Assembly: GCF_004364805.1 (NCBI RefSeq)
Contig: NZ_SOAP01000007.1
Coordinates: 1-57,672, forward strand
DNA from: Pelagimonas phthalicica
GTDB taxonomy: Bacteria; Pseudomonadota; Alphaproteobacteria; Rhodobacterales; Rhodobacteraceae
Direction: 5' to 3'
DNA length: 57,672 bases
Positions 25,100-43,401 of this stretch are shown in pieces. Positions within the stretch are counted from its first letter, which is position 1, and every line of letters starts with the position of its first letter. Both the position numbers and the translations under genes were made by a program. The notes beneath the pieces are model-generated. The model ran no database searches and had not been told where the DNA came from. It was given only the letters and a program-made list of their open reading frames with translations.

Positions 25100-26299
25100 T
25101 CAGACAGCTTCGAGCGCGATTGCAATCCCCTGTCCCACGCCAATACACATGGTCGATAACGACTTTTCTCCAGGTTTGAGGTCCAGCATCGCTGAACCAG
25201 TGATGCGGGCACCTGACATGCCAAGCGGATGGCCGAGAGCAATAGCGCCGCCGTTCGGGTTCACGCGGGCGTCATCATCCGCGATCCCCAGGTGCCGTAG
25301 TGTGGCCAGACCCTGCGAAGCAAAGGCTTCGTTAAGTTCGATTACCGAGAAGTCTTCTTGTTTCAGTCCAAGTCGCGCCATCAGCTTTTCCGACGCCGGT
25401 GCCGGCCCGAAACCCATGATGCGCGGTGCGACGCCCGCGGTTGCGCCGCCCAAGACCCTTGCGATCGGTGTGAGGCCAAATTTTTTTGCGACGTCGCTGG
25501 TGGCAAGGATCAATGCTGCGGCACCATCGTTCACGCCCGAAGAATTCCCAGCGGTTACAGTGCCGTCCGCTTTTACGAAAGTTTTCAGTTGGGCGAGCGC
25601 TTCCAAAGTCGTACCCGCGCGAGGGTGTTCATCCTGTACGACGATCTTTGGCTCCCCCTTTCGCTGAGGAATCTCTACCGGGACAATTTCACGGGCCAAA
25701 CGACCGTTCGCCATGGCATCTCTCGCCTTTCGCTGCGAACGCATGGCGAAGGCATCTTGGTCGGCGCGGTTGATGCTGAAGTCTTCCGCTACGTTTTCGG
25801 CCGTTTCAGGCATGCTGTCGACGCCGTATTGACTCTTCATCTGTTTATTGACGAAGCGCCAGCCGATGGTGGTGTCTTCAGCAGAATTTTCGCGCGAGAA
25901 TGCAGTTGTAGCTTTTGGCATCACAAACGGAGCACGAGACATGCTTTCCACACCGCCAGCAACAATGAGATCGGCTTCTCCAGCTTTGATCGCGCGGGCG
26001 GCTGTGATTACGGCGTCCATACCCGATCCGCACAACCGGTTCATCGTCGTGCCAGGGACACAATCCGGAAATCCCGCGAGTAGCAGCGACATGCGTGCGA
26101 CGTTGCGGTTGTCCTCGCCCGCCTGGTTGGCGCAGCCGAAAATCACTTCGTCAATGGCCGCTAGATCTAGCTTCGGGTTTCGGCTGGCCAGGGCCCTGAG
26201 TGGGATTGCACCAAGATCGTCGGCTCGCACAGAAGAAAGCGCGCCGCCATAGCGACCAATTGGTGTGCGGATGTAATCGCAGATGTAGACGTTTGTCAT
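25100..26299 (-). CDS. pcaF: 3-oxoadipyl-CoA / acetyl-CoA C-acyltransferase thiolase (PcaF-like)
   Basis: The 399-residue thiolase has the nucleophile Cys90 in TTMNRLCGSGMDAV, the GGAIALGHPLGMSGAR block with the active His, and the second Cys in CIGVGQG. Overall it reads like PcaF/PaaJ, which splits 3-oxoadipyl-CoA into acetyl-CoA and succinyl-CoA. It is the last gene of a minus-strand run with etfA and etfB, 2 bases after etfA. In this island it would complete beta-oxidation of adipyl-CoA from cyclohexanol. Generic acetyl-CoA acetyltransferase is the alternative; the dicarboxylate context favours PcaF. Confidence 0.85.
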   Translation of the reverse strand: MTNVYICDYIRTPIGRYGGALSSVRADDLGAIPLRALASRNPKLDLAAIDEVIFGCANQAGEDNRNVARMSLLLAGFPDCVPGTTMNRLCGSGMDAVITAARAIKAGEADLIVAGGVESMSRAPFVMPKATTAFSRENSAEDTTIGWRFVNKQMKSQYGVDSMPETAENVAEDFSINRADQDAFAMRSQRKARDAMANGRLAREIVPVEIPQRKGEPKIVVQDEHPRAGTTLEALAQLKTFVKADGTVTAGNSSGVNDGAAALILATSDVAKKFGLTPIARVLGGATAGVAPRIMGFGPAPASEKLMARLGLKQEDFSVIELNEAFASQGLATLRHLGIADDDARVNPNGGAIALGHPLGMSGARITGSAMLDLKPGEKSLSTMCIGVGQGIAIALEAV

Positions 26300-26301
26300 T
26301 C

Positions 26302-27222
26302 TTAGAGTGCCTTTGTCATATCCGGGACGGCGTCGAGCAGGTCTGCGACCAGGCCGTAGTCGGCGACCTGGAAGATCTGGGCCTCTTCATCCTTGTTGAT
26401 GGCGACGATGACCTTGCTGTCCTTCATGCCTGCAAGGTGTTGAATTGCCCCGGAAATCCCGACCGCGATGTACAGCTCGGGCGCCACGACCTTGCCGGTC
26501 TGGCCGACCTGCCAGTCGTTCGGTGCGAACCCGCTATCCACCGCCGCGCGCGAGGCGCCGACCGCCGCGCCCAGCTTGTCGGCCAGGCCCTCGATGATCG
26601 CGAAGTTCTCCTCGGAACCGACGCCGCGACCGCCCGAGACCACGATCTTGGCCGAGGTCAGTTCCGGACGATCCGACGCCGCGACCTTGTCCTCGACCCA
26701 GGCGCTCAGGCCCGCGTTGCCGGCCGCTGCGATGGCCTCGACGGCGGCCGAACCACCCTGGCCAGCCGCGTCGAAGGCGGTGGTGCGGACGGTCAGTACC
26801 TTCTTGGAATCGTTGGACTTTACCGTCTGAATCGCGTTGCCCGCGTAGATCGGGCGTTCGAACGTGGACCCGTCCACGATGGCGGTGACGTCCGACAAAA
26901 CCATCACGTCCAGCAGCGCCGCGACGCGCGGCAGGATGTTTTTCGCGCTCGCCGTGGACGGAGCAACGATATGTTCATAATTGCCTGCCAGGCTGACCAC
27001 CAGATCGGCGACCGGCTCGGCCAGGCCGTTGGCATAGGCGGCGTCATCCGCCACCAGAACCTTTGCCACGCCGTCGATCTTCGACGCGGCCTCGCCTGCG
27101 GCAGCGGGGCCCGCAACCAGAACGGTCACATCGCCCAGCGATTTGGCAGCGGTCACCGCCTTGGCGGTGGCGTCCAGCGCCAGTGCACCACCGGCGATTT
27201 CTGCAAGGAGAAGAACAGCCAT
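26302..27222 (-). CDS. etfA: Electron transfer flavoprotein alpha subunit
   Basis: The 306-residue protein has the EtfA C-terminal FAD domain: VVSGGRGVGSEENFAIIEGL, then VGQTGKVVAPELYIAVGISG, then QHLAGMKDSKVIVAINKDEE. It forms a heterodimer with EtfB and carries electrons from acyl-CoA dehydrogenases to ETF-ubiquinone oxidoreductase. The ATG overlaps the etfB stop by one base. GC content of this gene is visibly higher than that of the thiolase and SDR genes on each side. Confidence 0.95.
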   Translation of the reverse strand: MAVLLLAEIAGGALALDATAKAVTAAKSLGDVTVLVAGPAAAGEAASKIDGVAKVLVADDAAYANGLAEPVADLVVSLAGNYEHIVAPSTASAKNILPRVAALLDVMVLSDVTAIVDGSTFERPIYAGNAIQTVKSNDSKKVLTVRTTAFDAAGQGGSAAVEAIAAAGNAGLSAWVEDKVAASDRPELTSAKIVVSGGRGVGSEENFAIIEGLADKLGAAVGASRAAVDSGFAPNDWQVGQTGKVVAPELYIAVGISGAIQHLAGMKDSKVIVAINKDEEAQIFQVADYGLVADLLDAVPDMTKAL

Positions 27223-27980
27223 TACACGATCCCCTTTTCTTTCAGCTTCGACACCAGCTCGTCGACCGAGCCAACCATTTCCCCGGCCGAACGCGCGGCG
27301 GGCTCTGCCGTCTTGACGACGGTCAGGCGCGGCGTGACATCGACGCCGAAATCGGCGGCGGTCTTTTCGTCCAGCGGTTTCTTCTTGGCTTTCATGATGT
27401 TGGGCAGCGAGGCGTAGCGCGGCTCGTTCAGGCGCAGGTCGGCGGTGACGATCGCCGGCAGCTTCACCTTGATGGTCTGCAGACCGCCGTCCACTTCGCG
27501 GGTCACGACGGCATGCTCGCCCTCGATCGCAACCTCAGAGGCATAGGTCGCCTGACCCCAGCCCAGCAGCGCCGCCAGCATCTGGCCGGTCGCGTTCATG
27601 TCGTTGTCGATCGCCTGTTTGCCCGCGATCACCAGGCCCGGCGCCTCGGCGTCGATCACGGCCTTTAGGATCTTGGCCACCGCCAGCGGCTCGATATCTT
27701 GGTGCACGTCGTCGGCGGCCACGACGAGGATCGCCCGGTCCGCGCCCATCGCCAGCGCCGTGCGCAGCGTTTCCTGCGCCTGTTTCACGCCGATCGACAC
27801 GACGACAAGCTCGTCCGCCTTGCCCGCTTCCTTCAGACGGATCGCCTCTTCAACCGCAATCTCGTCGAACGGGTTCATCGACATCTTCACATTCGCGAGA
27901 CCAACTCCGCTACCGTCCGCCTTAACGCGAACCTTCACGTTGTAATCAATTAGGTGTTTTATAGGTGCAATTATTTTCAT
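27222..27980 (-). CDS. etfB: Electron transfer flavoprotein beta subunit
   Basis: The 252-residue protein shows the EtfB signatures [20 protein letters not shown] and [20 protein letters not shown]; the full length is normal. With EtfA it accepts electrons from acyl-CoA dehydrogenase. The first 20 or so codons ([14 protein letters not shown]) are A+T-rich, whereas the rest is G+C-rich, which suggests a recombination joint inside the gene. The start lacks a strong ribosome site. An island-borne ETF implies that the adipyl-CoA dehydrogenase step is supplied with its own acceptor. Confidence 0.95.
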
Positions 27981-28014
27981 TGGCGTTTATCGTCTTGGAA
28001 ATTTGCAATGGCAG

Positions 28015-28039
28015 TAACGGCCCGGGTTCCAGGCCGTTA
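28015..28039 (-). terminator. Hairpin between SDR and etfB genes
   Basis: Arms TAACGGCC and GGCCGTTA (8 bp, perfect) are separated by 9 bases. No T tract follows on the minus strand, so it may be an mRNA-processing or attenuation hairpin rather than a full terminator. Confidence 0.4.
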
Positions 28040-28056: not shown

Positions 28057-28812
28057 TCAATTCGCAGTATAACCGCCATCTACTACAATCTCTGCTCCGT
28101 GAACGAACGATGACTCATCCGATGCGAGGAACAGGACCGCATTCGAAACCTCTTCAGGTTTGCTTGGCCGCTTGAGCAGCGTGGCCCCCAGAATTGCCTG
28201 CCGGGTCTCTTCGTCGGCGTGTAGCAGATCTTTTGTCATGGGAGTATCGATGACACCGGGATGGATCGAATTGACACGTATGCCACTTTCGGCCAGGTCG
28301 ACTGCGCAGGATTTGGTCAACATCCGTACGGCGCCTTTGGATCCAATGTAGGCTCCCGCCGAAGCGGCACCAACAATCCCATAGATTGAAGAAATATTGA
28401 TAATTGATGCTTTTTCGGTCTCTTTCATCAATGGAACCGCGGCTCGGATACCGAGATAAACACCGCGTACATTGACGTTGATCGTCATGTCAAATTCGTC
28501 AGGCGAGGTTTCGTGGAGCGGCTTCAGAATGAGAATGCCAGCGTTGTTCACTAGCACATCAAGTCGACCAGCACTTGATTGCACCGTGGAGATGACATTC
28601 TTCCAATCTTCTTCAAGCGTCACGTCATGCTGAATGAATTCCGCCTTCCCTCCGGCTCCAATGATACCTTTTACTACGCTTTCACCCGCTTCCGTATCAC
28701 GGTCGGTTACAAATACATGCGCGCCTTCACGTGCCAGCGTTTCACAATGGGCTTTTCCCATGCCCATGGCGCCACCTGTTACCAGTGCGACTTTTCCGGA
28801 TACCCGTCCCAT
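28057..28812 (-). CDS. Short-chain dehydrogenase/reductase, probable cyclohexanol dehydrogenase
   Basis: The 251-residue SDR has the cofactor motif TGGAMGMG (12-19), NNAG (89-92) and the active Tyr155 and Lys159 in YIGSKGA, with Ser141 or Ser142 upstream. Asp37 in VTDRD at the end of beta-2 predicts NAD rather than NADP. It lies directly downstream of the cyclohexanone monooxygenase, where ChnA-type enzymes oxidise cyclohexanol to cyclohexanone. Start 28812 was chosen by the AGGAGAG site; the frame extends 9 codons upstream. Substrate is inferred from context; SDRs are not predictable from sequence alone. Confidence 0.88.
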   Translation of the reverse strand: MGRVSGKVALVTGGAMGMGKAHCETLAREGAHVFVTDRDTEAGESVVKGIIGAGGKAEFIQHDVTLEEDWKNVISTVQSSAGRLDVLVNNAGILILKPLHETSPDEFDMTINVNVRGVYLGIRAAVPLMKETEKASIINISSIYGIVGAASAGAYIGSKGAVRMLTKSCAVDLAESGIRVNSIHPGVIDTPMTKDLLHADEETRQAILGATLLKRPSKPEEVSNAVLFLASDESSFVHGAEIVVDGGYTAN

Positions 28813-28884: not shown

Positions 28885-30522
28885 TTACACCTTCTCGGCA
28901 GTGCGGTCGCGGATCAGGGATGTATAACCTTCCTCCTTAACCGCACTAATGGCATTGCGATAATTGCCAATCCCGGCCATGTAGAACATCACCGCATTCT
29001 TCTTTCCGGGGATATTTGCGCCGAAGATCCAGCTTTCAGCTTTGGGGAAGAGTGTCATGTCGGCGATTTCACGGCAGGTGCCAACCCAAGCGTCGCGCGC
29101 CTCCACGGTTGGCTCCACACTTTGAACCCCCTCTTCTTCCATTGCGCAAATCGTGTCAGCGATCCATTCAACTTGCGTCTCAATGCTGGGGGGCAGGTTA
29201 GTGAAGGGGCCATTAGGGCCAAGGATCATGAAGAAGTTAGGGAAGTCTACCTCCATCATGCCGAGGTAACCGAGTGGGCCTTCCTTCCAAGTGTCGCGCA
29301 TGGTCACGCCTCCGCGTCCGCGGAGGTCCATTTTGACGTAATTGCCGTCGACCGCATCGAAACCAGTGGCAAAGATTACGATGTCAAGCTCATGCTCCTC
29401 GCCGCTTTCGAGACGAATGCCGTTCGGAGTGAACTCTGCGATCGGATCGGCCTTCACGTCGGCGAGGGTCACGTTGTCTCGGTTGTAGACCTCGTAATAG
29501 TTGTTTCCGCAAAGCGGGCGCTTGGCGTAAAGGTCCTTCGGCGTCAGTTTCTCTGCGACCTTGGGGTCCTTCACGATTTGCTTGATCTTGCCCTTGATGA
29601 AGTCAGCGGCCGCATCATTGGCCACTTGGCTGGTCGCAATATCGCAAAAGGTGCCAAACATGAAATAGAAACCACCGCCGCGCTGCCAGGCGGCTTCGAA
29701 GACCCGCTCCCGTTCCTCGGGCGAGGCGGTTTCGGCGGGTTCGGCGCTTTCTTCGAAGCCGAAGGCCACAACAGAATTCTTCACTTGATTCCAGATATTA
29801 TCGTAGTTCGCCTTTTGCTCGGCGATGGTAGCATCGTCTTGCGGGGTGTTCCCAATCGGCACGACATATTGTGCAGAGCGCTGAAAAACAGTCAGGTGTT
29901 TTGCAATTGGTGCCGTTGCAGTGATAACCTGAACACCCGTCGAGCCGGTGCCGATAATGCCCACGCGTTTGTTGCTCAAGTCCACTCCCTCGGGCCAGGC
30001 ACCTGTGTGTAAGATACGGCCTTTGAAATCATCGATGCCCTTGAATTTTGGAACATTCGTTGCGGACAAGAGACCGAGGCCAGTGACAAGGTATTTTGCG
30101 GTAACTGTCTCACCACTATCAGTGATCACGTTCCAGAGACCGGTTTTTTCATTATAGTGCGCGCCATCCACTTTGGTGTCGAACTTGTAGCTGCGTCGAA
30201 GATCGAGATGATCCGCTACCTCGTTCATGTATTCGAGGATCTCGGGCTGGGTCAGATACCGGGTTTTCCAGCGGCCTTTTCGAAGCAACTCTTTGTCAAA
30301 AGAATAGCGATAGACATAGCTTTCCGTGTCTGACAGCGCACCGGGATATCGGTTCCACCACCAGGTGCCGCCAACGTCACTGGCGCTGTCATAGCCCCGG
30401 ACGTTCAGTCCCTGCTCGTTGCGAAGTTTGTGGACAGCGTAAAGCCCGCCGAAGCCCGCGCCAATGACGACTGCGTCAAAATCCGCTCCGACCGTTTTAG
30501 TATTCTCAGTCTGAATGTTCAT
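28885..30522 (-). CDS. chnB: Baeyer-Villiger monooxygenase, cyclohexanone monooxygenase type
   Basis: The 545-residue flavoenzyme has two Rossmann motifs, GAGFGG (21-26) and GTGSTG (191-196), flanking the Baeyer-Villiger fingerprint FKGRILHTGAWP (166-177). Long blocks match what I know of Acinetobacter cyclohexanone monooxygenase, such as LGLLSATNVPKFKGI, DLYAKRPLCGNNYY, LGPNGPFTNLPPSIE and WIFGANIPGKKN. The length is nearly identical (about 543). It would use NADPH and O2 to turn cyclohexanone into epsilon-caprolactone. GGAGG precedes ATG 30522. Cyclopentanone and related ketones are possible substrates. Confidence 0.93.
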   Translation of the reverse strand: MNIQTENTKTVGADFDAVVIGAGFGGLYAVHKLRNEQGLNVRGYDSASDVGGTWWWNRYPGALSDTESYVYRYSFDKELLRKGRWKTRYLTQPEILEYMNEVADHLDLRRSYKFDTKVDGAHYNEKTGLWNVITDSGETVTAKYLVTGLGLLSATNVPKFKGIDDFKGRILHTGAWPEGVDLSNKRVGIIGTGSTGVQVITATAPIAKHLTVFQRSAQYVVPIGNTPQDDATIAEQKANYDNIWNQVKNSVVAFGFEESAEPAETASPEERERVFEAAWQRGGGFYFMFGTFCDIATSQVANDAAADFIKGKIKQIVKDPKVAEKLTPKDLYAKRPLCGNNYYEVYNRDNVTLADVKADPIAEFTPNGIRLESGEEHELDIVIFATGFDAVDGNYVKMDLRGRGGVTMRDTWKEGPLGYLGMMEVDFPNFFMILGPNGPFTNLPPSIETQVEWIADTICAMEEEGVQSVEPTVEARDAWVGTCREIADMTLFPKAESWIFGANIPGKKNAVMFYMAGIGNYRNAISAVKEEGYTSLIRDRTAEKV

Positions 30523-30637: not shown

Positions 30638-31540
30638 TCAGAGGGCCCGATACCATGCGGCGATGCGACCAAGTTCCTCGTTTGCCTCGGGCGCGCGTCC
30701 CGAAAGCGCGGGAAAGACATGCTGCATGCCTTCGACGATAGACAGGGTCACGTTTACGCCCTGTGCCTTGGCCTTTTCGTGCAACCGTTCGGCATCGCTC
30801 TTAAGCGTCTCGGCCCCTCCGGCATTGATATAGAGCGGCGGGTAACCGGTGAAATCGTTCTCCAGCGGGTTGGCCAACGGATTAAGCGGATCCGTGCCTT
30901 CACCGAGGAACATCCCCGCCATCGCTTCGAGGATCGGTTTGCCGACTAGCGCATCGGTTTCCGCGTTGGTTTCCAGTGTTTCCCCGCGCATCGCCATGTC
31001 GAGCCAGGGCGAATAGGCGATGACCGCTCCGGGCAGTGGCAACCCAAGTTCGCGTAACTTCAGCACGCTGGCGATGGCAAGATTGCCGCCAGCACTGTCG
31101 CCAGCCGTCAGAATATTTCTTGCCTTGAAACCCTTATCCAGCAGCGCTTTGTATGCGGCTACTGCATCTTCGATCTGCGCCGGAAATGGGTGCTCGGGTG
31201 CGCGCCGATAGTGCAGGATCACCGACGTAACCCCAAGCACCTTAGCGAGGTGCCCTGCCATTTTTCGATGACTATCGGCTGAGCCGACGGCAAAGCCGCC
31301 ACCATGAGTGTAAACAATTACACGCGAGGTATCTGCCCCGGCTGGTAGGGCCCAGATAGCCTCAACTCCTCCGACATGATCGCTTTTGTAGCTAACGTTT
31401 TCCGGCTCTAGTGCGGGCTGCCCCCATTCATCGAACATGCTGCGCAGGTTCGCGATCGTCAGGTCTGGGTTCTCGACCATCTGATCGGTCCAATTCTGAT
31501 AAAGCGCCCGCAGCGTATCCGCTTCTCTACTGATTTCCAT
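30638..31540 (-). CDS. HSL-family alpha/beta-hydrolase, probable lactone hydrolase
   Basis: The 300-residue esterase has the oxyanion motif HGGG (79-82), nucleophile GDSAGG (Ser149), and later the acid/His region GTDPLNPLANP and EGMQHVFP. These are marks of the hormone-sensitive lipase family, to which ChnC-type caprolactone hydrolases belong. It is upstream of, and on the same strand as, the Baeyer-Villiger gene, so hydrolysis of epsilon-caprolactone to 6-hydroxyhexanoate is the expected job. Start 31540 was chosen by GGGAGGA just upstream. Substrate is inference from context. Confidence 0.88.
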   Translation of the reverse strand: MEISREADTLRALYQNWTDQMVENPDLTIANLRSMFDEWGQPALEPENVSYKSDHVGGVEAIWALPAGADTSRVIVYTHGGGFAVGSADSHRKMAGHLAKVLGVTSVILHYRRAPEHPFPAQIEDAVAAYKALLDKGFKARNILTAGDSAGGNLAIASVLKLRELGLPLPGAVIAYSPWLDMAMRGETLETNAETDALVGKPILEAMAGMFLGEGTDPLNPLANPLENDFTGYPPLYINAGGAETLKSDAERLHEKAKAQGVNVTLSIVEGMQHVFPALSGRAPEANEELGRIAAWYRAL

Positions 31541-31733
31541 GTTTATCCTCCCAAGCATAACATTTGGCAAAGCCACCAACTGACGTCGCCAATCTCGAAG
31601 ACGTCAAACGGTCAACGGCATACGCCAATTATCTCAGAGTAAGGGCGAAAAATGCGCCATGTATTGAACAATCCTGCTTTGGAAATAGTATGATCGTGCT
31701 CAGCCTGTCGTGAGGCAGATATGCCCGTTACTA
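31541..31733 (-). promoter_or_regulatory. Upstream region of the esterase operon, cut by the IS elements
   Basis: About 190 bases lie between the esterase start and the IS5 remnant. This should hold the promoter of the esterase-monooxygenase-dehydrogenase run, unless these genes were originally read from further upstream. No promoter or activator site was recognised. Confidence 0.3.
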
Positions 31734-31747
31734 GGCTCTGTTGATGG

Positions 31748-31760
31748 CGTGGATACCCCC
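31748..31760. repeat. Subterminal inverted repeat, left, of the IS1111-type element
   Basis: CGTGGATACCCCC pairs with GGGGGCATGCATG at 33114-33126 in 10 of 13 positions. It starts 4 bases inside the left junction, while the right copy reaches the right junction, an asymmetry typical of IS1111 elements. Confidence 0.55.
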
Positions 31761-31827
31761 TCCCGACGGCATCGCAATGTGCCACTATGATGAGCGTTAA
31801 AAGCCATCACAGAAGGAAGGAGCATCT

Positions 31828-32855
31828 ATGTCCGAAATTAAAATTATCGGTGTCGACTTGGCAAAGCGCGTTATCCAGTTGCATGGTGCGTACAATGATG
31901 GGTCAGTCGCGTTTCGCAAAAAGCTTTCACGAGGCCAGTTTCTCGCGTTCGTGGCACAGCAACCCAAATGCATGATCGCCATGGAGGCGTGGCCACGGCG
32001 TATGGCTGGGGCCGCGAATTTGAGAAGCTGGGGTGCGACGTGCGGTTGATACCGCCGGTCTATGTGAAGCCGTTCGTCAAACGCCAGAAGAATGATGCGA
32101 CCGATGCAGAGGCCATCTTGGAGGCTGCATTGCGTCCAACCATGCGCTTTTTCGCAGTGAAGACGGAAGATCAGCAGGCCCGTGCCATGCTGTTTCGCAC
32201 GCGGCAGATGTTTGTCGGCCAGCGCCCCCAGATGATCAACGCTTTACGCGGCCACCTCGCCGAACACGGATTGGTCGCGGCCCGCGGGCCTGCCCATCTC
32301 AAGCGACTCGCGGACGCAATCGCAGGTGATGACACCGCGCTGCATGCTGAGGTTCGTGACCTCGGCCGGATGTATCTGGGGCAGATTGAGGGGCTGAATA
32401 CGCGTGTTGCAGAGCTTGACGCGAAGATGCGATGTGCCGCCAAGAAAGCCGACTTGGTGCGCCGAACACAAACCATGCCGGGCGTGGTTCCTGTCACGGC
32501 GCTTGCGATCGAGACATTTGCCCGTGACCTGGCCACCTTCCGGCGCGGGTGCGATTTTGCCGCCTGGCTTGGGCTTGTGCCGAAGCAGCACTCGACGGGC
32601 GGCAAAGCCCGGCTCGGGAAGACCTCGAAGATGCGACAGCGCGACTCCGGACACTCTTGGTCTCTGGCGCTATGGCTGTCCTCCAGGCTGTCGAGCGGTT
32701 TGACACACCGAATAATGGCTGGCTGAAACGCCTACTAACCCGCAAGCCGCGCATGGGTCGCCGCGATTGCGCTGGCCAACAAGATGGCGCGTGGCCTCTG
32801 GGCCATCATAATGAAACAAGAGGATTACCGGAATCCGGTGGCGGCGATGGCATAG
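31828..32855 (+). pseudogene. Frameshifted IS110-family transposase
   Basis: The N-terminus (IIGVDLAKRVIQLHGAYNDG) carries the first Asp of the DEDD catalytic domain. The middle (YVKPFVKRQKNDATDAEAIL) and the C-terminal block (DFAAWLGLVPKQHSTGGK, then RTLLVSGAMAVLQ, then VAAIALANKMARGLW) are clear IS110 sequence. They lie in different frames: breaks occur near 31985, 32635 and 32755. Each looks like a one-base change. The original product would be about 340 residues, with the serine-containing C-terminal domain in the last third. Confidence 0.85.
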
Positions 32856-33113
32856 CGAAGACGGCATGCCACGACGTCCCGGTAAGTTGGGAGTGTGAGG
32901 AGGTCACTGAAAAGTAAGGGCAAAGGATCGATCAGATCCGGGTCAGAGAAAGCAGCATTTGTGCAGGAGCCACCGAGCTCGGTTTGTTGATATGCCTCTG
33001 GTCCGCGCATCGCCATACCGGCCCGCGGTTACATCAGCGCCGCACACAGAGGCCTGATACATGACCGCACCCGATCACACGCTCGCGCCGTTCAAAAAAT
33101 CACTTGCACCAAT
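32856..33113 (+). ncRNA. Right-end non-coding region of the IS1111-type element; possible bridge RNA
   Basis: IS110-family elements make a structured bridge RNA from a non-coding end; in the IS1111 group it is expected 3' of the transposase gene. This 258-base segment has no gene and is the only region of the element large enough. A segment with TTTGTTG near 32978-32984 resembles the target GGCTCTGTTG. No structure was computed, so this is a place to look, not a demonstrated RNA. Confidence 0.35.
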
Positions 33114-33126
33114 GGGGGCATGCATG
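33114..33126. repeat. Subterminal inverted repeat, right, of the IS1111-type element
   Basis: GGGGGCATGCATG, partner of 31748-31760 (10 of 13 positions match), ends exactly at the inferred right junction. Confidence 0.5.
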
Positions 33127-33179
33127 CACAAATCCCGTGTCGGACTCATCTTATGAATCCAGCGTGGTAGCTGAGGTGC

Positions 33180-35963: not shown

Positions 35964-37418
35964 TCACAGCACTGGCGCGCGATTGCGCGAGATAAATTTG
36001 GTAATGAGATAGCCTTCGAAGGTTTCCGTCCCGCCTTCAGTCCCATAGCCGCTGTCTCTCACGCCTCCAAACGGAGTCTCGGGCAGAGCGAGGCCGAACT
36101 GGTTGATGCTTACCATACCTGCCTGCAAACCCGCAGCTGCTTTATCTGCACGCTCTAACGAATTGGTAAAGACATAGGACGCCAGCCCGAAGGGTAGCCC
36201 GTTGGCCCGCGACAGTCCGTCCTCTATGTCACGAAAAGACGAGACGACAGCAATCGGGCCGAAGGGTTCTTCGCGCATCAAGTCAATGTCGTCGTTGGGC
36301 GTATCGACGATTGTCGGGGCATAGAAGTTACCATGATTTCCAAGCCTTTTGCCTCCCGTCAACACCCGTGCGCCGTTTTCGCGGGCATCCTCGACGAGCT
36401 TTTCCATCGCATTCACGCGTCCGCGATGACACAATGGCCCCATCTGTGTGCCCTCGGTTAAACCATCGCCCACCTTTACGCTCTCAAATGCTGAAACTAG
36501 CTCGGACAGAAATCGGTCGTAGATGCCTTGTTGTACGTAAAACCGGGTTGGGGCGATGCACACCTGGCCTGCATTGCGCAGCTTGTTGCCCGCCAAGGCG
36601 CGCGCCGCGGCCGTGGCATCGGCGTCGTCGAACACCAATACGGGCGCGTGACCGCCGAGTTCCATCGTCGCCCGCTTCATGTGGCGGCCAGCCAATTCTG
36701 CCAGATGCTTGCCCACCTCGACCGAACCGGTGAAGGTGATCTTGCGCACCTCGGGGCGCGCAATAAGAGTTTCCGAAATGAAGGCCGCATTACCCCAGAC
36801 AAGGTTCAGACAGCCTTCGGGCAAGCCTGCATCCAGCAGATAGCGCGCAATTGCCATGCAGCCCGCCGGAGCCTCTGCCGGGGCTTTCAAGATCATCGTG
36901 CAACCTGACGCAAGCGCCGCCGCGACCTTGCGTACCGCTTGGCTCAGCGGAAAATTCCAAGGCGTGATGGCAAGGCAGACGCCTATCGGTTCGCGCACGA
37001 CAAGCTGCTGTACCCCCGGGCTGCGCGATGGAATGATGCGCCCATAAATGCGCCGACATTCCTCGGCGTGCCAGTCGACGTGGTCAGCTGAGGCGCGGAC
37101 CTCAGCCAAGGCCTCAGCCAGCGGCTTGCCTTCATCGAGAGTGATCCAGCCAGCGATCAGTCTGTCATTTTGGCGCAGCAGGTCGGCAAACCGTCGCAAA
37201 ATTGCACTTCGTTCCATGGGAGAGCTGTTTTTCCATCGGCGAAAAGCTGATTCGGCCGAGTGAACCGCATGGTCCAGATCTGCGGCGCTAGCCTGCGGAA
37301 TCTGTCCGATAGTTTGCCCGTTTGCAGGGTTTATGACTGCACGATCCTCCGGCGTGGGAGAAGCGATCCAGTCCCGTCCGATGAGGTGCTGGATGGTCGG
37401 ATAATTCATTTCTTTCAT
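35964..37418 (-). CDS. Aldehyde dehydrogenase, succinate-semialdehyde type (probable 6-oxohexanoate dehydrogenase)
   Basis: The 484-residue enzyme has the ALDH hallmarks: NAD-binding TFTGSVEVGKHL, general base Glu253 in MELGG and nucleophile Cys287 in NAGQVCIAP. The overall pattern fits the GabD/class-I semialdehyde group, which acts on omega-oxo acids. In this island it would oxidise 6-oxohexanoate to adipate (ChnE role). I chose ATG 37418 because GAGGG lies 9 bases upstream and the fold begins there. It is the first gene of a minus-strand operon with the hydratase/dehydrogenase fusion and is divergent from the IclR gene. Confidence 0.88.
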   Translation of the reverse strand: MKEMNYPTIQHLIGRDWIASPTPEDRAVINPANGQTIGQIPQASAADLDHAVHSAESAFRRWKNSSPMERSAILRRFADLLRQNDRLIAGWITLDEGKPLAEALAEVRASADHVDWHAEECRRIYGRIIPSRSPGVQQLVVREPIGVCLAITPWNFPLSQAVRKVAAALASGCTMILKAPAEAPAGCMAIARYLLDAGLPEGCLNLVWGNAAFISETLIARPEVRKITFTGSVEVGKHLAELAGRHMKRATMELGGHAPVLVFDDADATAAARALAGNKLRNAGQVCIAPTRFYVQQGIYDRFLSELVSAFESVKVGDGLTEGTQMGPLCHRGRVNAMEKLVEDARENGARVLTGGKRLGNHGNFYAPTIVDTPNDDIDLMREEPFGPIAVVSSFRDIEDGLSRANGLPFGLASYVFTNSLERADKAAAGLQAGMVSINQFGLALPETPFGGVRDSGYGTEGGTETFEGYLITKFISRNRAPVL

Positions 37419-37489: not shown

Positions 37490-37508
37490 TTTTCCGCATA
37501 GCGGAAAA
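37490..37508. promoter_or_regulatory. Palindrome in the IclR / aldehyde dehydrogenase divergent region
   Basis: Perfect arms TTTTCCGC and GCGGAAAA are separated by ATA. The site lies in the 171-base gap between divergent genes, 72 bases from the ALDH start and 82 bases from the iclR start. Its size and place fit the operator of the adjacent IclR regulator, which could control both operons. Confidence 0.65.
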
Positions 37509-37589: not shown

Positions 37590-38384
37590 GTGAGACCAAG
37601 GAAAGACCGCACCAAGGACGCCGAGAGACAGGACCGCGATTTTGTCACGGCGTTGGCGCGCGGCTTGGAGCTGTTGCGGGCCTTTCGGCGGGAAGGGGAA
37701 GCTCTGGGGAATGGTGAGTTGGCCGAGCGCACTGGCCTGAGCAGATCGACGGTCTCCCGGCTGGCCTATACACTGAACAAGCTGGAATACCTCAGCTACG
37801 ACCCGGATACAGCACGTTATCGACTGGCCCCTCCAGTGCTTTCGTTGGGTTTCTCCTGCCTTGCAGGGATTCCGCTGCGGCAACTGGCGAAGCCCTTTAT
37901 GCAGGAGCTGGCTGATTACACAGGCATGCCGGTGGCCATGGCCAGTCGTGACCGGCTATCGATGGTCTATCTGGAGCGGTGCAAGGGCACTAATGCCGTC
38001 ACGCTGGCGATCGAGGTTGGTGCCCATATTAAACTGGCCACGACCGCGGTTGGTCGCGCCTGCATAGCGGCGCACGACCCGGATGAGCGGGCCAGAATTC
38101 TGGCCCTTGTGGAGGAACATGAAGGCGACAACTGGCCGAATGTGCAGCCCGGAATCGAAGCAGCTATCGCAGACTACCAACAGCACGGTTACTGCACGTC
38201 CTTCACGGAGTGGAAACGTGATGTGAACGCTGTAGCGGTGCCCTTCGTGCCGAAGGACGGCTCACCCATTATTGCCTTCAACTGCGGTGGCCCTTCGCAA
38301 ACCCTTACGCGCGACTGGATCGAAAGCGACGTCGCGCACCGCCTTGTCGATCTTGTCCGCCGCGTTGCGGCGGTCGCACCCTGA
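37590..38384 (+). CDS. IclR-family transcriptional regulator
   Basis: The 264-residue protein has an N-terminal winged helix (about 25-80: LGNGELAERTGLSRSTVSRL) and a C-terminal effector domain (VYLERCKGTNAVTLAIEVGA, then KLATTAVGRACIAA). GTG 37590 follows GAGGAGGG. The family often controls aromatic and dicarboxylate breakdown (PcaR, PobR, PcaU). It is the first gene of the acd-adh-caiB operon and faces the ALDH operon, with a perfect dyad between. The ligand might be adipate, an adipyl-CoA intermediate or 6-hydroxyhexanoate; the sequence does not tell. Confidence 0.92.
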   Translation: MRPRKDRTKDAERQDRDFVTALARGLELLRAFRREGEALGNGELAERTGLSRSTVSRLAYTLNKLEYLSYDPDTARYRLAPPVLSLGFSCLAGIPLRQLAKPFMQELADYTGMPVAMASRDRLSMVYLERCKGTNAVTLAIEVGAHIKLATTAVGRACIAAHDPDERARILALVEEHEGDNWPNVQPGIEAAIADYQQHGYCTSFTEWKRDVNAVAVPFVPKDGSPIIAFNCGGPSQTLTRDWIESDVAHRLVDLVRRVAAVAP

Positions 38385-38399: not shown

Positions 38400-39560
38400 A
38401 TGGCCCTTGATAAAGATACCCTTTCCCAGTTTCTCGACGCGCTCGACCGCTTCGTGAAAGAGCGACTAATCCCTTACGAGGATCGCGTCGCCGACGAGGA
38501 TGTGATTCCGCCGATGCTGGTCGATGAAATCCGCATGATGGGCCTTTTCGGCATGTCGATCCCGGAAGATTTCGGCGGGCTCGGCTTGTCGATGATAGAG
38601 GAAGTGCAAGCCGCTTTCGTTCTTGGCCAGGCTTCGCCTGCGTTCCGGTCGCTAGTTGGCACCAACAACGGGATCGGCTCTCAGGGAATCATCATCGATG
38701 GAACCGACGAGCAGAAGGCGCAGTATCTACCAGCTCTCGCGTCCGGAGATATGATCGCATCCTTCGCCCTAACCGAGCCAGATGCTGGGTCGGATGCTGG
38801 CAGTCTGCGCACTACGGCGCGGCGTGACGGTAACGATTTCCTTCTGAACGGCACGAAACGCTACATTACCAATGCACCGCGTGCCGATCTATTCACGGTT
38901 TTTGCCCGGACCAATCCAGAGGCGGAAGGTTCTGCCGGCGTAAGCGCCTTTCTCGTCGAGGCAGGGACGCCAGGCATAACGCTTGGCCAGCCTGACAGGA
39001 AGATGGGGCAGAAGGGCTCGCACACATGCGACGTCATCCTTGACAATGTCCGCGTGCCTGCCGCGAACATTATCGGCGGGCCGGACCGTCTGAACAAGGG
39101 CTTTAAGACAGCAATGAAAGTCCTTGACCGGGGCCGACTGCATATTTCTGCCGTCTGTGTGGGCGCCGCCGAACGGCTGATCCGTGACAGCCTATCCTAT
39201 GCGATGGAACGCAAACAATTCGGTGAACCCATCGCTGAAAAGCAACTGATCCAAGCCATGCTGGCTGACAGTCGCGCCGAGGCCTTCGCAGCGCGTTGCA
39301 TGATCGAAGAAACAGCACGCCGCAAGGACGCTGGTCAGAACGTGTCGACTGATGCTGCCTGCTGCAAGATGTTTGCCAGTGAGATGGTAGGTCGAGTGGC
39401 CGATCGCGCAGTGCAAATCCACGGCGGTGCAGGATACATGGCCGAATATGCGGTCGAGCGCTTCTATCGCGATGTGCGTCTCTTCCGCATCTACGAGGGG
39501 ACAACCCAGATTCAGCAAATACTGATCGCGCGGAATATGATCCGCACTGCAGCAGCTTAA
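38400..39560 (+). CDS. Acyl-CoA dehydrogenase, probable adipyl-CoA dehydrogenase
   Basis: The 386-residue flavoprotein has the acyl-CoA dehydrogenase blocks ALTEPDAGSDAGSLRTTA, then IHGGAGYMAEYAVERFYRDV and IYEGTTQIQ with catalytic Glu366. It should convert adipyl-CoA to 2,3-dehydroadipyl-CoA and pass electrons to EtfAB, encoded 11 kb away in the same island. It follows iclR by 15 bases and precedes the alcohol dehydrogenase by 18. A fatty acyl-CoA substrate cannot be ruled out. Confidence 0.9.
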   Translation: MALDKDTLSQFLDALDRFVKERLIPYEDRVADEDVIPPMLVDEIRMMGLFGMSIPEDFGGLGLSMIEEVQAAFVLGQASPAFRSLVGTNNGIGSQGIIIDGTDEQKAQYLPALASGDMIASFALTEPDAGSDAGSLRTTARRDGNDFLLNGTKRYITNAPRADLFTVFARTNPEAEGSAGVSAFLVEAGTPGITLGQPDRKMGQKGSHTCDVILDNVRVPAANIIGGPDRLNKGFKTAMKVLDRGRLHISAVCVGAAERLIRDSLSYAMERKQFGEPIAEKQLIQAMLADSRAEAFAARCMIEETARRKDAGQNVSTDAACCKMFASEMVGRVADRAVQIHGGAGYMAEYAVERFYRDVRLFRIYEGTTQIQQILIARNMIRTAAA

Positions 39561-39578: not shown

Positions 39579-40733
39579 ATGGACTTCAATTTCCTTTCCA
39601 CCCCGAGGATCGTCTGCGAGAGCGGTGGGCTTGGCCGGATCGGCAGCCTGATGCAAGATTTGTCTTGCACCCGTGCGCTGGTCGTGACGGACCCGGGCAT
39701 ATTGGCCTGTGGTTTTGCGGACGAGGCAGCCGCCTCACTTAGGGCTGCTGGCATCGAGGTTGAGATTTTTCATAAAGTCGAAGCGGACCCCCCGATCGCT
39801 GTCGTCGAGGCCGCGGTAGAGGTCGCGCGGGCCTTTGGTGCTGACGGAATCATCGGACTTGGCGGCGGCAGTTCACTGGACACTGCCAAGGTCATCGCAG
39901 CGGCGGTAGCCAACGATCAACCGATTACGGACATGATCGGGATTAATCAGGTCACCGATAAACGCTTGCCACTGATCCAGGTGCCAACCACGGCAGGGAC
40001 CGGATCAGAGGTAACATGGGTGTCCGTGCTGACTTCGGAAAGCCACGAAAAAAAAGCGGTATATGCACCGCAGCTTCTGCCTGACGTTGCCTTGCTAGAT
40101 GCAAAGCTAACATTGGGAATGCCTCGTCACATCACAGCGGCCACGGCGTTAGACGCAATGGTTCACGCCATTGAGGCAGTAACCAGTCGCACCAGAAAGA
40201 ATCCCATTTCCGATGGAATGGCGGACAAAGCGCTGGTGCTTCTCGGTCAGAACTTACCAATCGTCATGGAAACGCCTTCGGACCTGTCAGCGCGAGAGGC
40301 CATGCTGTTGGGGGCGACACTGGCTGGGATGGCCTTCATTAATGCCAGCGTGGGGGCGATTCATGCCTTGTCATACCCACTTGGAACAGGTTTCAAGGTT
40401 CCTCACGGGCACGCAAACGCTCTGGTCGCAGGACCAGTGATGAGGTTCAACATGCCCGTTGCAGAAGCTGAATATGCTCGTCTATCGCGGTTACTACTGC
40501 CCTCGCGGCCTTTCAACTCTGATGCGGCTGCGGCCCATGGCCTGATCGACGAGATGGAACGGATGCTAGTCGAAAGCGGACTTGAGTCTCGACTTTCTGG
40601 TGTCGGAGTGACCGAGGCAGCCATTCCCGGAATGGCTAATGAGGTCGTGACCGGTATCACGCGATTGCTGGAGACCAACCCGCGCGACATGACAGCCGAA
40701 GATGTGTCGCGCCTCTATCAGGAGGCGCTTTGA
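39579..40733 (+). CDS. Iron-containing alcohol dehydrogenase, probable 6-hydroxyhexanoate dehydrogenase
   Basis: The 384-residue group III alcohol dehydrogenase has the NAD motif GGGSSLDTAK and metal ligands in ATALDAMVHAIEAV, HALSYPLGT and PHGHANAL. Family members oxidise 4-hydroxybutyrate and other primary alcohols. Here it would oxidise 6-hydroxyhexanoate to 6-oxohexanoate. In Acinetobacter this step (ChnD) uses a zinc enzyme, so this would be a different solution. Its stop overlaps the CoA-transferase ATG by one base (TGATG). Confidence 0.9.
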   Translation: MDFNFLSTPRIVCESGGLGRIGSLMQDLSCTRALVVTDPGILACGFADEAAASLRAAGIEVEIFHKVEADPPIAVVEAAVEVARAFGADGIIGLGGGSSLDTAKVIAAAVANDQPITDMIGINQVTDKRLPLIQVPTTAGTGSEVTWVSVLTSESHEKKAVYAPQLLPDVALLDAKLTLGMPRHITAATALDAMVHAIEAVTSRTRKNPISDGMADKALVLLGQNLPIVMETPSDLSAREAMLLGATLAGMAFINASVGAIHALSYPLGTGFKVPHGHANALVAGPVMRFNMPVAEAEYARLSRLLLPSRPFNSDAAAAHGLIDEMERMLVESGLESRLSGVGVTEAAIPGMANEVVTGITRLLETNPRDMTAEDVSRLYQEAL

Positions 40734-41935
40734 TGGCTGGCTCATTGGACGGGATCAAGGTGGTCGACCTCAGCCGCGTGCTGGGCGGGCCTTACTGCAC
40801 CCAAATGCTTGCGGATCATGGCGCTGAGGTCATCAAGGTGGAGCCGCCTCTGGGCGACGAGACCCGCAGTTGGGGCCCGCCTTTCAATGATGAACTCAGC
40901 GCTTATTTCTCTGGCGCCAACCGCAACAAGCGGTCCATCGCTATCGATCTGCAGCAACCGGAAGGGCGCGACCTGATTTTGCGGTTTCTTCAGGATGCGG
41001 ATGTTTTAGTTCACAATTTTAAGTCTGGTACTCTTGAAAAATGGGGGCTTGGTTATGCTGATGTTCTCAGGGCACGTTTTCCTAGACTGGTACTCTGCCA
41101 TGTGACTGGATTTGGTTCCGATGGCCCACTTGGCGGTTTTCCCGGCTATGACGCCGTGGTACAAGCTATGACGGGCCTCATGAGCATCAACGGCAATCCC
41201 TCCGAAGGCCCGACACGCATGGGTACGCCCATCGTGGACATCGGCACCGGTCTGATCGCCTGTAACGCTATTCTCGCCGCACTTTTGGAACGGGGCCGGT
41301 CCGGATTGGGCCAAGCCATCGAAGTGCCGCTATATGATTGCGCGATCAGCATGATGCATCCCCAAGCGGCTAATTCCCTCATGTCCGGACAGATACCAAT
41401 GGCGACCGGCAATGGGCATCCAAATATCGTACCATACGACATGTTCGAAACAAGTAATGGCAAACTCTATCTGGCTATCGGTAACAATGGTCAGTTCGCA
41501 AAACTCTGTGACGTGCTTGGCCTACCTGAGGTGCCCTGCGATCCACGATTTGCCGACAATGCCGCGCGTCTTGCGCATCGGTCAGAGATGACAGAGGTCT
41601 TGTCAGAGTGCCTGGTGCAACATGACGCCTTCAAACTTGAGCCGGTGCTTTTGAAAGCTGGGATTCCCGCCGGAGTCGTTCGGAATGTGAATGAAGCGTT
41701 GGAGCATCCACACACCCGACATCGCGGCATGGTGGTATCAGTTGGCACCTACCGCGGCACCGGCGTGCCAGCACGCTTGTCGCGTACCCCCGGAGCGGTT
41801 CGCGCGGCACCGCCTCGCTTCGGGCAGCATAGTAGGGAGTTGCTTAGCGAGGCTGGACTGACAGAAGCTGAAATCGATAGATTGACTCAAGCGAATATCG
41901 TTCGAGAAGAACCGCGGATGCGCGAGACGACCTAA
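40733..41935 (+). CDS. CaiB/BaiF (class III) CoA-transferase, probable succinyl-CoA:adipate CoA-transferase
   Basis: The 400-residue protein begins with the family pattern LDGIKVVDLSRVLGGPYCTQ and has the catalytic Asp169 in MGTPIVDIGTGL. Relatives move CoA from succinyl-CoA to glutarate or other acids. In this context it would activate adipate using the succinyl-CoA that the thiolase releases. GGAGG (40721-40725) gives ATG 40733; a TTG codon just before it is not needed. It closes the iclR operon. Confidence 0.9.
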   Translation: MAGSLDGIKVVDLSRVLGGPYCTQMLADHGAEVIKVEPPLGDETRSWGPPFNDELSAYFSGANRNKRSIAIDLQQPEGRDLILRFLQDADVLVHNFKSGTLEKWGLGYADVLRARFPRLVLCHVTGFGSDGPLGGFPGYDAVVQAMTGLMSINGNPSEGPTRMGTPIVDIGTGLIACNAILAALLERGRSGLGQAIEVPLYDCAISMMHPQAANSLMSGQIPMATGNGHPNIVPYDMFETSNGKLYLAIGNNGQFAKLCDVLGLPEVPCDPRFADNAARLAHRSEMTEVLSECLVQHDAFKLEPVLLKAGIPAGVVRNVNEALEHPHTRHRGMVVSVGTYRGTGVPARLSRTPGAVRAAPPRFGQHSRELLSEAGLTEAEIDRLTQANIVREEPRMRETT

Positions 41936-41987
41936 GCCGAAATTTCAGCTCAAGCGGACGATCGTGAAAAAGTTCAGGGAGGCCAAG

Positions 41988-42869
41988 ATGGAAAGACTGC
42001 TCATATCACCGGACCGGATACCCGAATGGATTCCCGGCACGACTACGTTGGACAGTTCCGGGTGCAACTGGAACGGCATTACCCTGAAGGGCTATCGTTA
42101 TGAGCGACAAGACGCGGCAATTCCCCCCATGCGCGACTATATGATTGTTGCATATGATGGCGCGCCAACCACTATGCGCCGCACGAGTGGCGGCCCATGG
42201 CAAAGCGCGCGCGTAGAGAAAGGTAGGATTTCCTTGCTCACGCGTGCAGAGGAATCCACTTGGAGTTGGTCCGAGCCTATCACGGTTAGACACGTCTATC
42301 TCAGTCACAGTGAACTCGAAAACACGGCCCTTTCGGTCTTTGATCGTGACCCGAAGTCCATTGAGATCAATGATTGTCTGTCTGCGAAGGACCCCTGTAT
42401 CCTGAACTGCATCCAATTGCTAGAGAATGAGCTAAAGAACGGTGGAATCGGCCAGAGATTGATCATCGACGCCCTGCGCATCCAGATCGCCGTTCACCTT
42501 CTGCGTCAGTACGCCAAGGTCTCTTTGACCAGCGACGCAAACTCGAACTTCAGCCCTGCTCAAAGGCAGAGAATCATCGATCTCGTTGAAAGCTGCTTAG
42601 GTGAAAACCTCAGTCTGGAAGACATGGCCGCATCTATCGGTTTCAGCCAGTTTCACTTTTCGCGTCAGTTCAAGGCGGAGTTTGGGTTGGCACCGTATGC
42701 ATATGTTTTGCGCAAGCGAATATCGAAGGCCCAGGAGATGCTGAGAAAGGGTAATGCCCCCCTGAAAGTGGTCGCGCTTGACTGCGGTTTTGCAGATCAG
42801 AGTCATTTTAGTCGAACTTTTCGAAAAATGACAGGCGCGACCCCCGCCGAATTCCGGCGCATGGCATAA
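41988..42869 (+). CDS. AraC-family transcriptional regulator
   Basis: The 293-residue protein ends in two AraC helix-turn-helix units: NLSLEDMAASIGFSQFHFSR, and then VALDCGFADQSHFSRTFRKM. The N-terminal 180 residues are a ligand domain without clear family traits. AGGGAGG lies just before ATG 41988. ChnR, the activator of the cyclohexanol genes in Acinetobacter, is also AraC-type, so this is a good candidate activator of the esterase-monooxygenase operon. It is read in the same direction as, and 52 bases after, the CoA-transferase gene. Confidence 0.9.
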   Translation: MERLLISPDRIPEWIPGTTTLDSSGCNWNGITLKGYRYERQDAAIPPMRDYMIVAYDGAPTTMRRTSGGPWQSARVEKGRISLLTRAEESTWSWSEPITVRHVYLSHSELENTALSVFDRDPKSIEINDCLSAKDPCILNCIQLLENELKNGGIGQRLIIDALRIQIAVHLLRQYAKVSLTSDANSNFSPAQRQRIIDLVESCLGENLSLEDMAASIGFSQFHFSRQFKAEFGLAPYAYVLRKRISKAQEMLRKGNAPLKVVALDCGFADQSHFSRTFRKMTGATPAEFRRMA

Positions 42870-42942
42870 TGACCGGAAAACTATTCCTTCCTATCGCTGT
42901 CACGCACCAGAGACAAAGAAATGTTGAGCCCGTAACGCTGCA

Positions 42943-43401
42943 ATGAATGTACCAGAAACAGAATTTAAACCACGATTTGCCTTCGAACGCAGGATTTTCT
43001 TTGGCGACTGTGACCAGCTGGGAATCGCCTTTACTGGCCGGATTACGAATTTCGCGCTGGAAGCGATCGAGACTTTCTGGGACGATTTGCTTTCAGGCCG
43101 GGGCTGGCTTTTTCTACTCACGGAAAGAAACACGGCCATGCCTTTTGTCTCTATGGACCTACAATTCCATGCGCCGGTGAAAGCAGGCGCGAACCTAGCA
43201 TGCGAGGTCTATGTGGTCCATGTCGGGGAAAGTTCAGTTGGTCTAAAAGTTGTCGGCCGTCAGCATGACTTGATTTGCTTCGAATGCGAAACGAAGTCAG
43301 TTTTCCGAGATGCTTCAACATTTGGTAAAGTCAAAATTGAAAGCTCAATTCGGCAGATTTTGCTCGCGGAAGTGGGTTCGGAAAATCAAACAGTGAGCTA
43401 G
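42943..43401 (+). CDS. 4HBT-like hot-dog thioesterase
   Basis: The 152-residue protein has the 4-hydroxybenzoyl-CoA thioesterase signature FGDCDQLGIAFTGRITNF, in which the Asp of GDCDQ is the usual catalytic residue, then MDLQFHAPVKAGANL. Such enzymes free CoA from dead-end or excess acyl-CoA. It is the last gene of the catabolic island, 73 bases after the AraC gene. A housekeeping role of relieving CoA trapping by adipyl-CoA is plausible; the substrate is unknown. Confidence 0.82.
   Translation: MNVPETEFKPRFAFERRIFFGDCDQLGIAFTGRITNFALEAIETFWDDLLSGRGWLFLLTERNTAMPFVSMDLQFHAPVKAGANLACEVYVVHVGESSVGLKVVGRQHDLICFECETKSVFRDASTFGKVKIESSIRQILLAEVGSENQTVS

Follow-up and report, generated by a model that had tools for sequence, protein, structure and literature searches.

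Gene clusters of the chn type carry an esterase, a cyclohexanone monooxygenase (CHMO), a short-chain dehydrogenase/reductase (SDR) and a zinc-type, medium-chain dehydrogenase/reductase (MDR) alcohol dehydrogenase (ADH), with or without an aldehyde dehydrogenase (ALDH). For adipate, the dca genes of Acinetobacter are named as a beta-oxidation module in the part of PMC12543098 that we consulted, and the consulted part of PMC6061476 describes a caprolactam-induced cluster in Pseudomonas jessenii, whose CoA-transferase was compared with the acetyl-CoA:oxalate enzyme of E. coli. While the chemistry of the chn route and of adipate beta-oxidation is known, what is newer in the locus described here is their packaging together and their spread through marine plasmids. 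The window that we analyzed, a stretch of 57,672 bases, is contig C7 of the 4.89-Mb genome of Pelagimonas phthalicica (19 contigs), and it contains an ~18-kb cassette of 14 genes (25100-43401; Table 1). We hypothesize, with a probability of about 0.78, that this plasmid-borne cassette enables growth of its host on cyclohexanol or cyclohexanone.

Candidate enzymes for a complete route

All 14 genes listed in an earlier sequence-only reading of this DNA were found in frame and intact, with no internal stops, and every one of them matches one or more Pfam models above the curated cut-off, which confirms the gene set itself. The specific equivalog cut-off of NCBIfam was passed by PcaF only, while the SDR passed a broad subfamily model.

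The Baeyer-Villiger monooxygenase (BVMO) is assigned as a CHMO by its score ranking among PDB sequences, which is not a tree. The top seven PDB sequences in a phmmer search were all named cyclohexanone monooxygenase (723-745 bits, with 744.9 bits over 527 residues for the enzyme of Thermocrispum municipale), and ten sequences named 'putative flavin-binding monooxygenase' (658-701 bits) ranked between these and the rest, whereas the best scores against steroid, phenylacetone and OTEMO enzymes were 494, 470 and 414 bits, with the steroid and phenylacetone enzymes spanning 455-494 bits. The class proposed in the sequence-only reading is thus upheld by these scores. Type I BVMOs have a fingerprint of two GxGxxG motifs and FxGxxxHxxxW(P/D); the alignment shows GAGFGG, FKGRILHTGAWP and GTGSTG, that is, two GxGxxG and one FxGxxxHxxxWP, and the stretches GPNGPFTNLPPSIE and SWIFGANIPGK are common to the window BVMO and the T. 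municipale CHMO. As in chn clusters, the genes for the SDR, the CHMO and a lactone-hydrolase-type esterase are adjacent, and the esterase is 65-88% identical to CHMO-adjacent esterases in four other loci.

Each step from cyclohexanol to acetyl-CoA and succinyl-CoA has one candidate by sequence, as had been proposed, and an electron transfer flavoprotein (ETF) pair is present in addition. In the proposed route, the SDR would oxidize cyclohexanol to cyclohexanone, the CHMO would insert oxygen to yield epsilon-caprolactone, and the esterase would open this ring to give 6-hydroxyhexanoate, which the iron-type ADH (Fe-ADH) may convert to 6-oxohexanoate and the ALDH to adipate. The type III CoA-transferase would then move CoA from succinyl-CoA to adipate, and the resulting adipyl-CoA would be oxidized by the acyl-CoA dehydrogenase (ACAD), with electrons passing via the encoded ETF to the ETF-quinone oxidoreductase (ETF-QO) of the host, whose genome has two genes with an ETF-QO domain above cut-off. 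Hydration and oxidation by the FadB-type fusion would lead to 3-oxoadipyl-CoA, which PcaF would cleave to acetyl-CoA and succinyl-CoA, the latter possibly refilling the CoA donor. A second PcaF above cut-off is encoded on host contig C8.

Several features of the adipate half are consistent with this route. A 3-oxoadipyl-CoA thiolase is present and the cassette lacks an acyl-CoA ligase gene, both of which suggest a C6 substrate. The ACAD keeps a YEGT stretch, and the FadB-type fusion keeps GGGLEIAL, LPEV and VGMHFFSPA in its PDB alignment; we take these stretches to be catalytic in both enzymes. The PDB matches of the CoA-transferase include the succinate-hydroxymethylglutarate CoA-transferase 9br6. 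A zinc/MDR-type ADH (PF08240/PF00107) is present in five chn-type loci (JS666, Pseudomonas, Actibacterium, SMR1, and Rhodococcus), where the window has the Fe-ADH instead; no match to the Pseudomonas zinc-type enzyme was found in the cassette at E 1e-20.

Conservation, selection and candidate control sites

Six Roseibium/Labrenzia records matched the cassette, and the two examined, plasmids of Roseibium sp. Sym1 and R. aggregatum from another order (Hyphomicrobiales), share 13 genes with the window, arranged identically; the fourteenth, the 4HBT thioesterase, was not found in these two copies. Protein identity between the window and the Roseibium plasmid is 67-89% for the 13 genes. The ratio of nonsynonymous to synonymous substitution (dN/dS, omega) against Roseibium is 0.04-0.24 in the 11 of these 13 genes with computable dS (0.8-2.2, partly near saturation; SDR and AraC are saturated), for example 0.10 for the BVMO and 0.04 for the esterase, and that of the SDR is 0.17 against Yoonia and 0.13 against S. 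alexandrii. This statement excludes eight Sphingopyxis rows, seven of them with saturated dS. These genes are under purifying selection, and since the gene order is also kept across orders, the cassette is more than a chance assembly.

More distant relatives keep parts of the arrangement. Sphingopyxis sp. HIX has AraC, CaiB, Fe-ADH, ACAD, IclR, ALDH, esterase and CHMO in order, with 50-79% identity, and a second Fe-ADH after the CHMO; its FadB-type match is just 39% identical. Its ETF pair (59 and 72% identity) is on a separate 25-kb contig, of which the 13.5 kb read contain nothing else from the cassette, and we rejected the idea that it adjoins the cassette. In Actibacterium and in a Rhodobacteraceae metagenome-assembled genome (MAG; 8.4-kb contig), ACAD-IclR lies beside esterase-CHMO, so that these four genes are found together though the others differ or are cut off.

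Two candidate control sites recur in these loci. In the divergent region between the ALDH (or esterase) and IclR genes, TTCCGC-N3-GCGGAA precedes the start of IclR by 95-99 nt in five of five loci, exact in three and with one mismatch in two. A third TTCCGC half-site, followed by TTGAC, is exact in four of the five loci; in the window, this half-site is degenerate, with TTGACG at 37522. In the consulted part of PMC8222616, the PcaR operator is given as GTTCGC-N3-GCGAAC, and PcaU, PobR and HmgR have an external direct half-site. The second site is the direct repeat AGCAAGA-N15-AGCAAGA, upstream of the esterase. Seven relatives were tested, counting the window, and six of them have it with 0-2 mismatches: it stands at -153 to -164 in the window, Yoonia, BL28, Roseibium and Actibacterium, and at -325 in the MAG, where a scaffold gap lies inside the esterase. 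Actibacterium and the MAG hardly differ at the control region and count as about one lineage. In Sphingopyxis the repeat is weak (4/14 mismatches, p 0.14). The p values of both motifs are biased low, since the motifs were picked by eye from the sequences and then tested. It is plausible that the PcaU-like IclR protein acts at the divergent ALDH/IclR promoter and the AraC protein at the direct repeat before the esterase, both being candidate regulatory links.

Exchange between marine plasmids

A search for the same gene set in other plasmids, suggested as a check in the sequence-only reading, was run and returned 12 plasmid records that hold most of the cassette (at least 80% of window positions 24000-46000). 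We compared 14 copies, namely these 12, including the twin of the window in strain THAF33, and two partial ones; the copy of Phaeobacter sp. G2, split by record ends, stands outside this comparison. All 14 genes are uninterrupted in nine copies, and seven records encode exactly the same CHMO protein. Over the cassette, 13 copies share 96.0-99.0% identity with the window, versus 87.4-89.8% for the left flank (10 copies with more than 1 kb aligned) and 86.6-87.6% in seven copies for the right flank, which is 100% identical in the other six. Further, the near-100% blocks change partner: 25.5-31.0 kb is shared with D7/Mameliella, and 34-36 and 38-43.4 kb with BL28/S. indolifex. This identity gap and the switching of partners show that the cassette has been exchanged and recombined between backbones.

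In genome scans, a 3,501-bp ACAD-FeADH-CaiB block is 99-100% identical in six of 390 genomes of the order, representing six genera (own genome included), and a CHMO with at least 97% identity was found in two of 394 genomes in the family scan (own genome included). The sources of the carriers are a vent plume, corals, kelp, a copepod, seawater and microplastic.

Weighing the predicted function

Several observations weigh against growth on cyclohexanol or cyclohexanone as the function of the cassette. The esterase, Fe-ADH, ALDH, CaiB, FadB and IclR proteins all score below specific NCBIfam cut-offs, for example 464 bits for the ALDH against TIGR01780 (cut-off 646), 361 for the CoA-transferase against the succinate-glutarate CoA-transferase model NF052585 (cut-off 750), 249 for the esterase against the GESAG-motif hormone-sensitive lipases NF058651 (cut-off 430), and 135.6 for IclR against the PcaR/PcaU/PobR model TIGR02431 (cut-off 284.75). 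The weaker assignments are those of the esterase, Fe-ADH, ALDH, CaiB and FadB, for which family and context suggest the roles. Neither a transporter nor a cyclohexane hydroxylase was found among the 14 genes. The IclR palindrome alone is not rare, with 0.47 matches expected per window at up to one mismatch, and it carries weight because its position is fixed rather than because of rarity; upstream of the esterase in the CHMO loci of JS666, Pseudomonas, SMR1, Rhodococcus, Neobacillus and Sphingobium, no AraC-type repeat was recognized (4-7 mismatches), and the repeat is therefore not general.

Gene integrity is a further concern. Five of the 14 copies are broken or partial: Mameliella KU6B is damaged in Fe-ADH and AraC; BL28 is damaged in PcaF, ACAD and Fe-ADH, which could be sequencing errors; in S. 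alexandrii CaiB is cut and AraC and the thioesterase are gone; and S. indolifex and S. pontiacus OXR-199 have lost the CHMO half. In the window, insertions separate the operon. The run ALDH-FadB-esterase-CHMO-SDR-EtfB-EtfA-PcaF, unbroken in Roseibium, is split between FadB and the esterase, where an IS110-type element is nested within a transposase remnant that we take to be of the IS5 family, and the FadB-esterase spacer measures 2.4 kb versus 192 bp in Roseibium. The Yoonia, S. pontiacus BL28, THAF37 and SCSIO 43209 copies have an empty site for the IS110-type element. The sequence-only reading, which described one island with the whole route, was right about the genes and had overlooked the two elements that split the unit. 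Given the insertions and the broken or partial sets, some carriers may not express the trait or may have lost it; since the insertion sits farther upstream than the AraC-type repeat, it may have left the promoter region of the esterase operon untouched.

CHMOs are promiscuous and accept many ketones, and a substituted or larger ring is therefore a possible substrate. It is unlikely, in our view, that the cassette serves mainly for another cyclic or linear ketone, such as a substituted cyclohexanone, a larger ring or a terpene-like compound, with only its tail end handling a C6 dicarboxylate. In favor of that explanation, AraC, which presumably senses the ring compound, is one of the cassette proteins that vary most (50-69% whole-protein identity in Sphingopyxis, the MAG and Roseibium), but the distance of the BVMO from the steroid, phenylacetone and OTEMO enzymes argues against it, and the combination of PcaF with no ligase points to C6. 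Entry lower in the route, from caprolactone, 6-hydroxyhexanoate or adipate released by polyesters, nylon or lipid residues, would make the BVMO and SDR passengers. The origin of two carrier strains, THAF33 and THAF37, from a polyethylene particle would fit such an entry, as would the retention of the adipate half alone in S. indolifex and OXR-199; we nevertheless regard it as quite improbable, since 12 of the 14 copies retain intact genes for the BVMO, SDR and esterase, and these genes are under purifying selection (omega 0.04-0.17).

A route from cyclopentanol or cyclopentanone via glutarate is suggested by the top CoA-transferase model, the succinate-glutarate one, although the score is below its cut-off. 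PcaF and the hydratase/dehydrogenase are not needed for glutarate, and the ACAD scores 292 bits against other acyl-CoA dehydrogenases versus 210 at best against glutaryl-CoA dehydrogenases. On these grounds we rejected glutarate/cyclopentanone as the main function, and we give it hardly any credence.

Taken together, growth on cyclohexanol or cyclohexanone is the reading that we prefer. If the cassette is functional, a single conjugation event could confer cyclohexanol/cyclohexanone mineralization on a marine bacterium. This raises the question of which alicyclic ketone, natural or man-made, favors the cassette at sea, and biotechnology may also gain from a compact CHMO-to-acetyl-CoA pathway that brings its own regulators. 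We further offer, tentatively and at somewhat below even odds, a broader proposal: the cassette might be a self-contained 'plug-in', in wide circulation among marine roseobacters, that takes alicyclic alcohols or ketones to central metabolites with its own ETF, in which AraC would read the ring ketone and the PcaU-like IclR the dicarboxylate, and which would hop faster than its backbones spread. If so, its hopping between backbones would imply a widespread, unrecognized marine source of cyclohexanone-type compounds.

Plasmid backbone and feature coordinates

The window is identical (100%) to bases 20067-77738 of pTHAF33_c, a circular plasmid of 78,249 bp in Ruegeria sp. THAF33. The first 6 kb of pTHAF33_c, with the ParA, ParB and RepC genes, is on host contig C9 at 100% identity, whereas nothing nearly identical to the first 6 kb of pTHAF33_d was found in the host genome (79% at best); the host is therefore probably a strain other than THAF33. 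The G+C content of the backbone is mostly 59-66%, dropping to 52-58% at 7-13 kb, and is 53-63% in the cassette region; the backbone alignment picks up again at 43465, right of the cassette. Between 24800-25110 and 43380-43560 no common word of at least 9 bases was found that could mark boundary repeats, and no structured RNA reached the gathering score in 24000-44000.

The window and the rest of pTHAF33_c together hold a conjugative gene set (relaxase, coupling protein, type IV secretion system [T4SS] and replicon), with candidates in the window for VirB1-6 and VirB8-11, where we take PF07996 to denote VirB5. This agrees with the 'conjugative element' of the sequence-only reading, while the PLSDB typing of pTHAF33_c is 'mobilizable' only. 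The carrier thus appears to be a RepABC-type plasmid with conjugation genes that may allow its transfer.

Several other backbone genes were observed. A Hachiman type II anti-phage system (HamA2, HamB2 and HamC2 by PADLOC) lies at 8050-11897, between the coupling protein and T4SS genes and within the region of lower G+C. The plasmid also encodes a protein with a Tle1-like phospholipase-effector domain of the type VI secretion system (PF09994; 5947-7368). An AAA_14/DUF4143 ATPase at 55908-57080 matches the candidate defence family PDC-S01, and in pTHAF33_c AbiE-type toxin-antitoxin, helicase, ATPase and SIR2-family genes are annotated in a row at 7550-19259, possibly a second defence block.

Table 1. 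Features of the window with their positions, strands and supporting matches (HSL, hormone-sensitive lipase; SSADH, succinate-semialdehyde dehydrogenase; ORF, open reading frame).
Feature	Position	Strand	Evidence
MobA/VirD2 relaxase and VirD4 coupling protein	2064..5928	+	PF03432, PF02534
T4SS block, candidates VirB11, 10, 9, 8, 6, 5, 4, 3, 2, 1	12180..23143	-	PF07996 for VirB5
pcaF-type 3-oxoadipyl-CoA thiolase	25100..26299	-	TIGR02430, 669.7 bits (cut-off 597)
EtfA, candidate electron acceptor for ACAD	26302..27222	-	PF00766, PF01012
EtfB	27222..27980	-	PF01012
SDR, candidate cyclohexanol dehydrogenase (ChnA role)	28057..28812	-	PF13561; start per annotation of the identical plasmid
CHMO (ChnB role)	28885..30522	-	phmmer vs PDB, motifs
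HSL-type esterase, candidate caprolactone hydrolase (ChnC role)	30638..31540	-	PF07859
AraC-type direct repeat AGCACGA-N15-AGCAGGA, period 22	31672..31700	-	160 nt before esterase start codon
IS110-type element, ends within ~2 bases	31744..33124	+	transposase ORF 252 aa, 31968-32726; NF033542
Frame-broken IS5-like transposase remnant in spacer	33125..33857 (end approximate)	+	PF13737, PF01609
FadB/peroxisomal-bifunctional-type enoyl-CoA hydratase and 3-hydroxyacyl-CoA dehydrogenase	33916..35955	-	PF00378, PF02737, PF00725
SSADH-type ALDH, candidate 6-oxohexanoate dehydrogenase (ChnE role)	35964..37418	-	PF00171
Palindrome TTCCGCATAGCGGAA, candidate IclR-type operator between divergent ALDH and IclR	37492..37506		
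IclR regulator, nearest PcaR/PcaU/PobR	37590..38384	+	PF01614, PF09339
ACAD, candidate adipyl-CoA dehydrogenase	38400..39560	+	PF00441/02770/02771
Fe-ADH, candidate 6-hydroxyhexanoate dehydrogenase	39579..40733	+	PF00465, PF25137
Type III CoA-transferase (CaiB-type), candidate succinyl-CoA:adipate CoA-transferase	40733..41935	+	PF02515
AraC regulator, candidate activator of esterase-BVMO operon	41988..42869	+	PF12833
4HBT thioesterase, no role assigned	42943..43401	+	PF03061
ParB-family gene immediately right of cassette	43551..45722	+	

Comparison with known systems

The sequence-only reading had stated that known chn clusters stop at adipate, which does not hold: in all ten other loci read that combine a CHMO with a close esterase, four of them relatives of the window cassette, one or more candidates for CoA activation or beta-oxidation lie no farther than ~16 kb from a CHMO. 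The other genome-scan loci, with 42-59% CHMO identity (L011-L087) had no esterase above 36% and are outside this ten-locus count. For example, a Pseudomonas kurunegalensis plasmid carries CHMO, esterase, SDR, zinc-type ADH and ALDH, with ETF, CaiB and PcaF ~12 kb past a second CHMO and no ACAD or FadB in the stretch read, and the Rhodococcus YL-1 plasmid has a near-complete set, its chn genes being accompanied by ACAD, CaiB, FabG, thiolase and MaoC. We therefore rejected the notion of a first case of linked halves. The linkage of both halves and ETF on a conjugative element is present here as the sequence-only reading described, but it is not unprecedented, given these linked sets and a dozen deposited plasmids.

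Other arrangements were seen along the way. The P. kurunegalensis plasmid, which comes from stool, encodes two CHMO-type enzymes within the stretch read and gave two full and one partial EtfA match. On a Neobacillus drentensis contig, a CHMO gene (69% protein identity to the marine enzyme) precedes genes for Fe-ADH, ALDH, an MFS transporter, an acyl-CoA ligase and a CaiB-type transferase, which is either another linked set, in Bacillota, or contamination. The P. pseudonitzschiae SMR1 plasmid (NZ_CP022419.1, 111268-112182) has an EtfA with 77% identity, ~24 kb away from a chn cluster that is its own and of a different kind.

A literature search of titles and abstract openings returned no paper describing this cassette, and the terms cyclohexan-, monooxygenase and adip- did not occur in the main text of PMC9025767 or in PMC13386836 and PMC5513947, which deal with the carriers or plasmids. 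In the part of PMC9025767 that we consulted, one of the carriers, pDSM107133_g, is given as RepABC-9-2 with a T4SS; the window thus shares its backbone type, and this one carrier, with the RepABC conjugative plasmids of roseobacters.

Compared with the chn loci of JS666 (Polaromonas) and P. kurunegalensis, the window has the same ring-opening enzymes (CHMO 63-67%, esterase 65-68% and SDR 62-63% identical), whereas these loci have a zinc-type ADH and no AraC-type repeat seen before the esterase, in place of the Fe-ADH, the repeat and the adipate genes inside the cassette. With the adipate modules it has in common the roles of CoA-transferase, acyl-CoA dehydrogenase, hydratase, dehydrogenase and thiolase, but it differs from them in the linkage to a ring-opening half, the FadB-type fusion and its own ETF pair. 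The Roseibium/Labrenzia cassette, in the two records examined, has the same 13 genes in order but is without the thioesterase and the insertions and lies in another plasmid context. What is distinct to the type of cassette found in the window is the single ordered unit, with its Fe-ADH, FadB-type fusion, own ETF, two conserved candidate sites and mobility.

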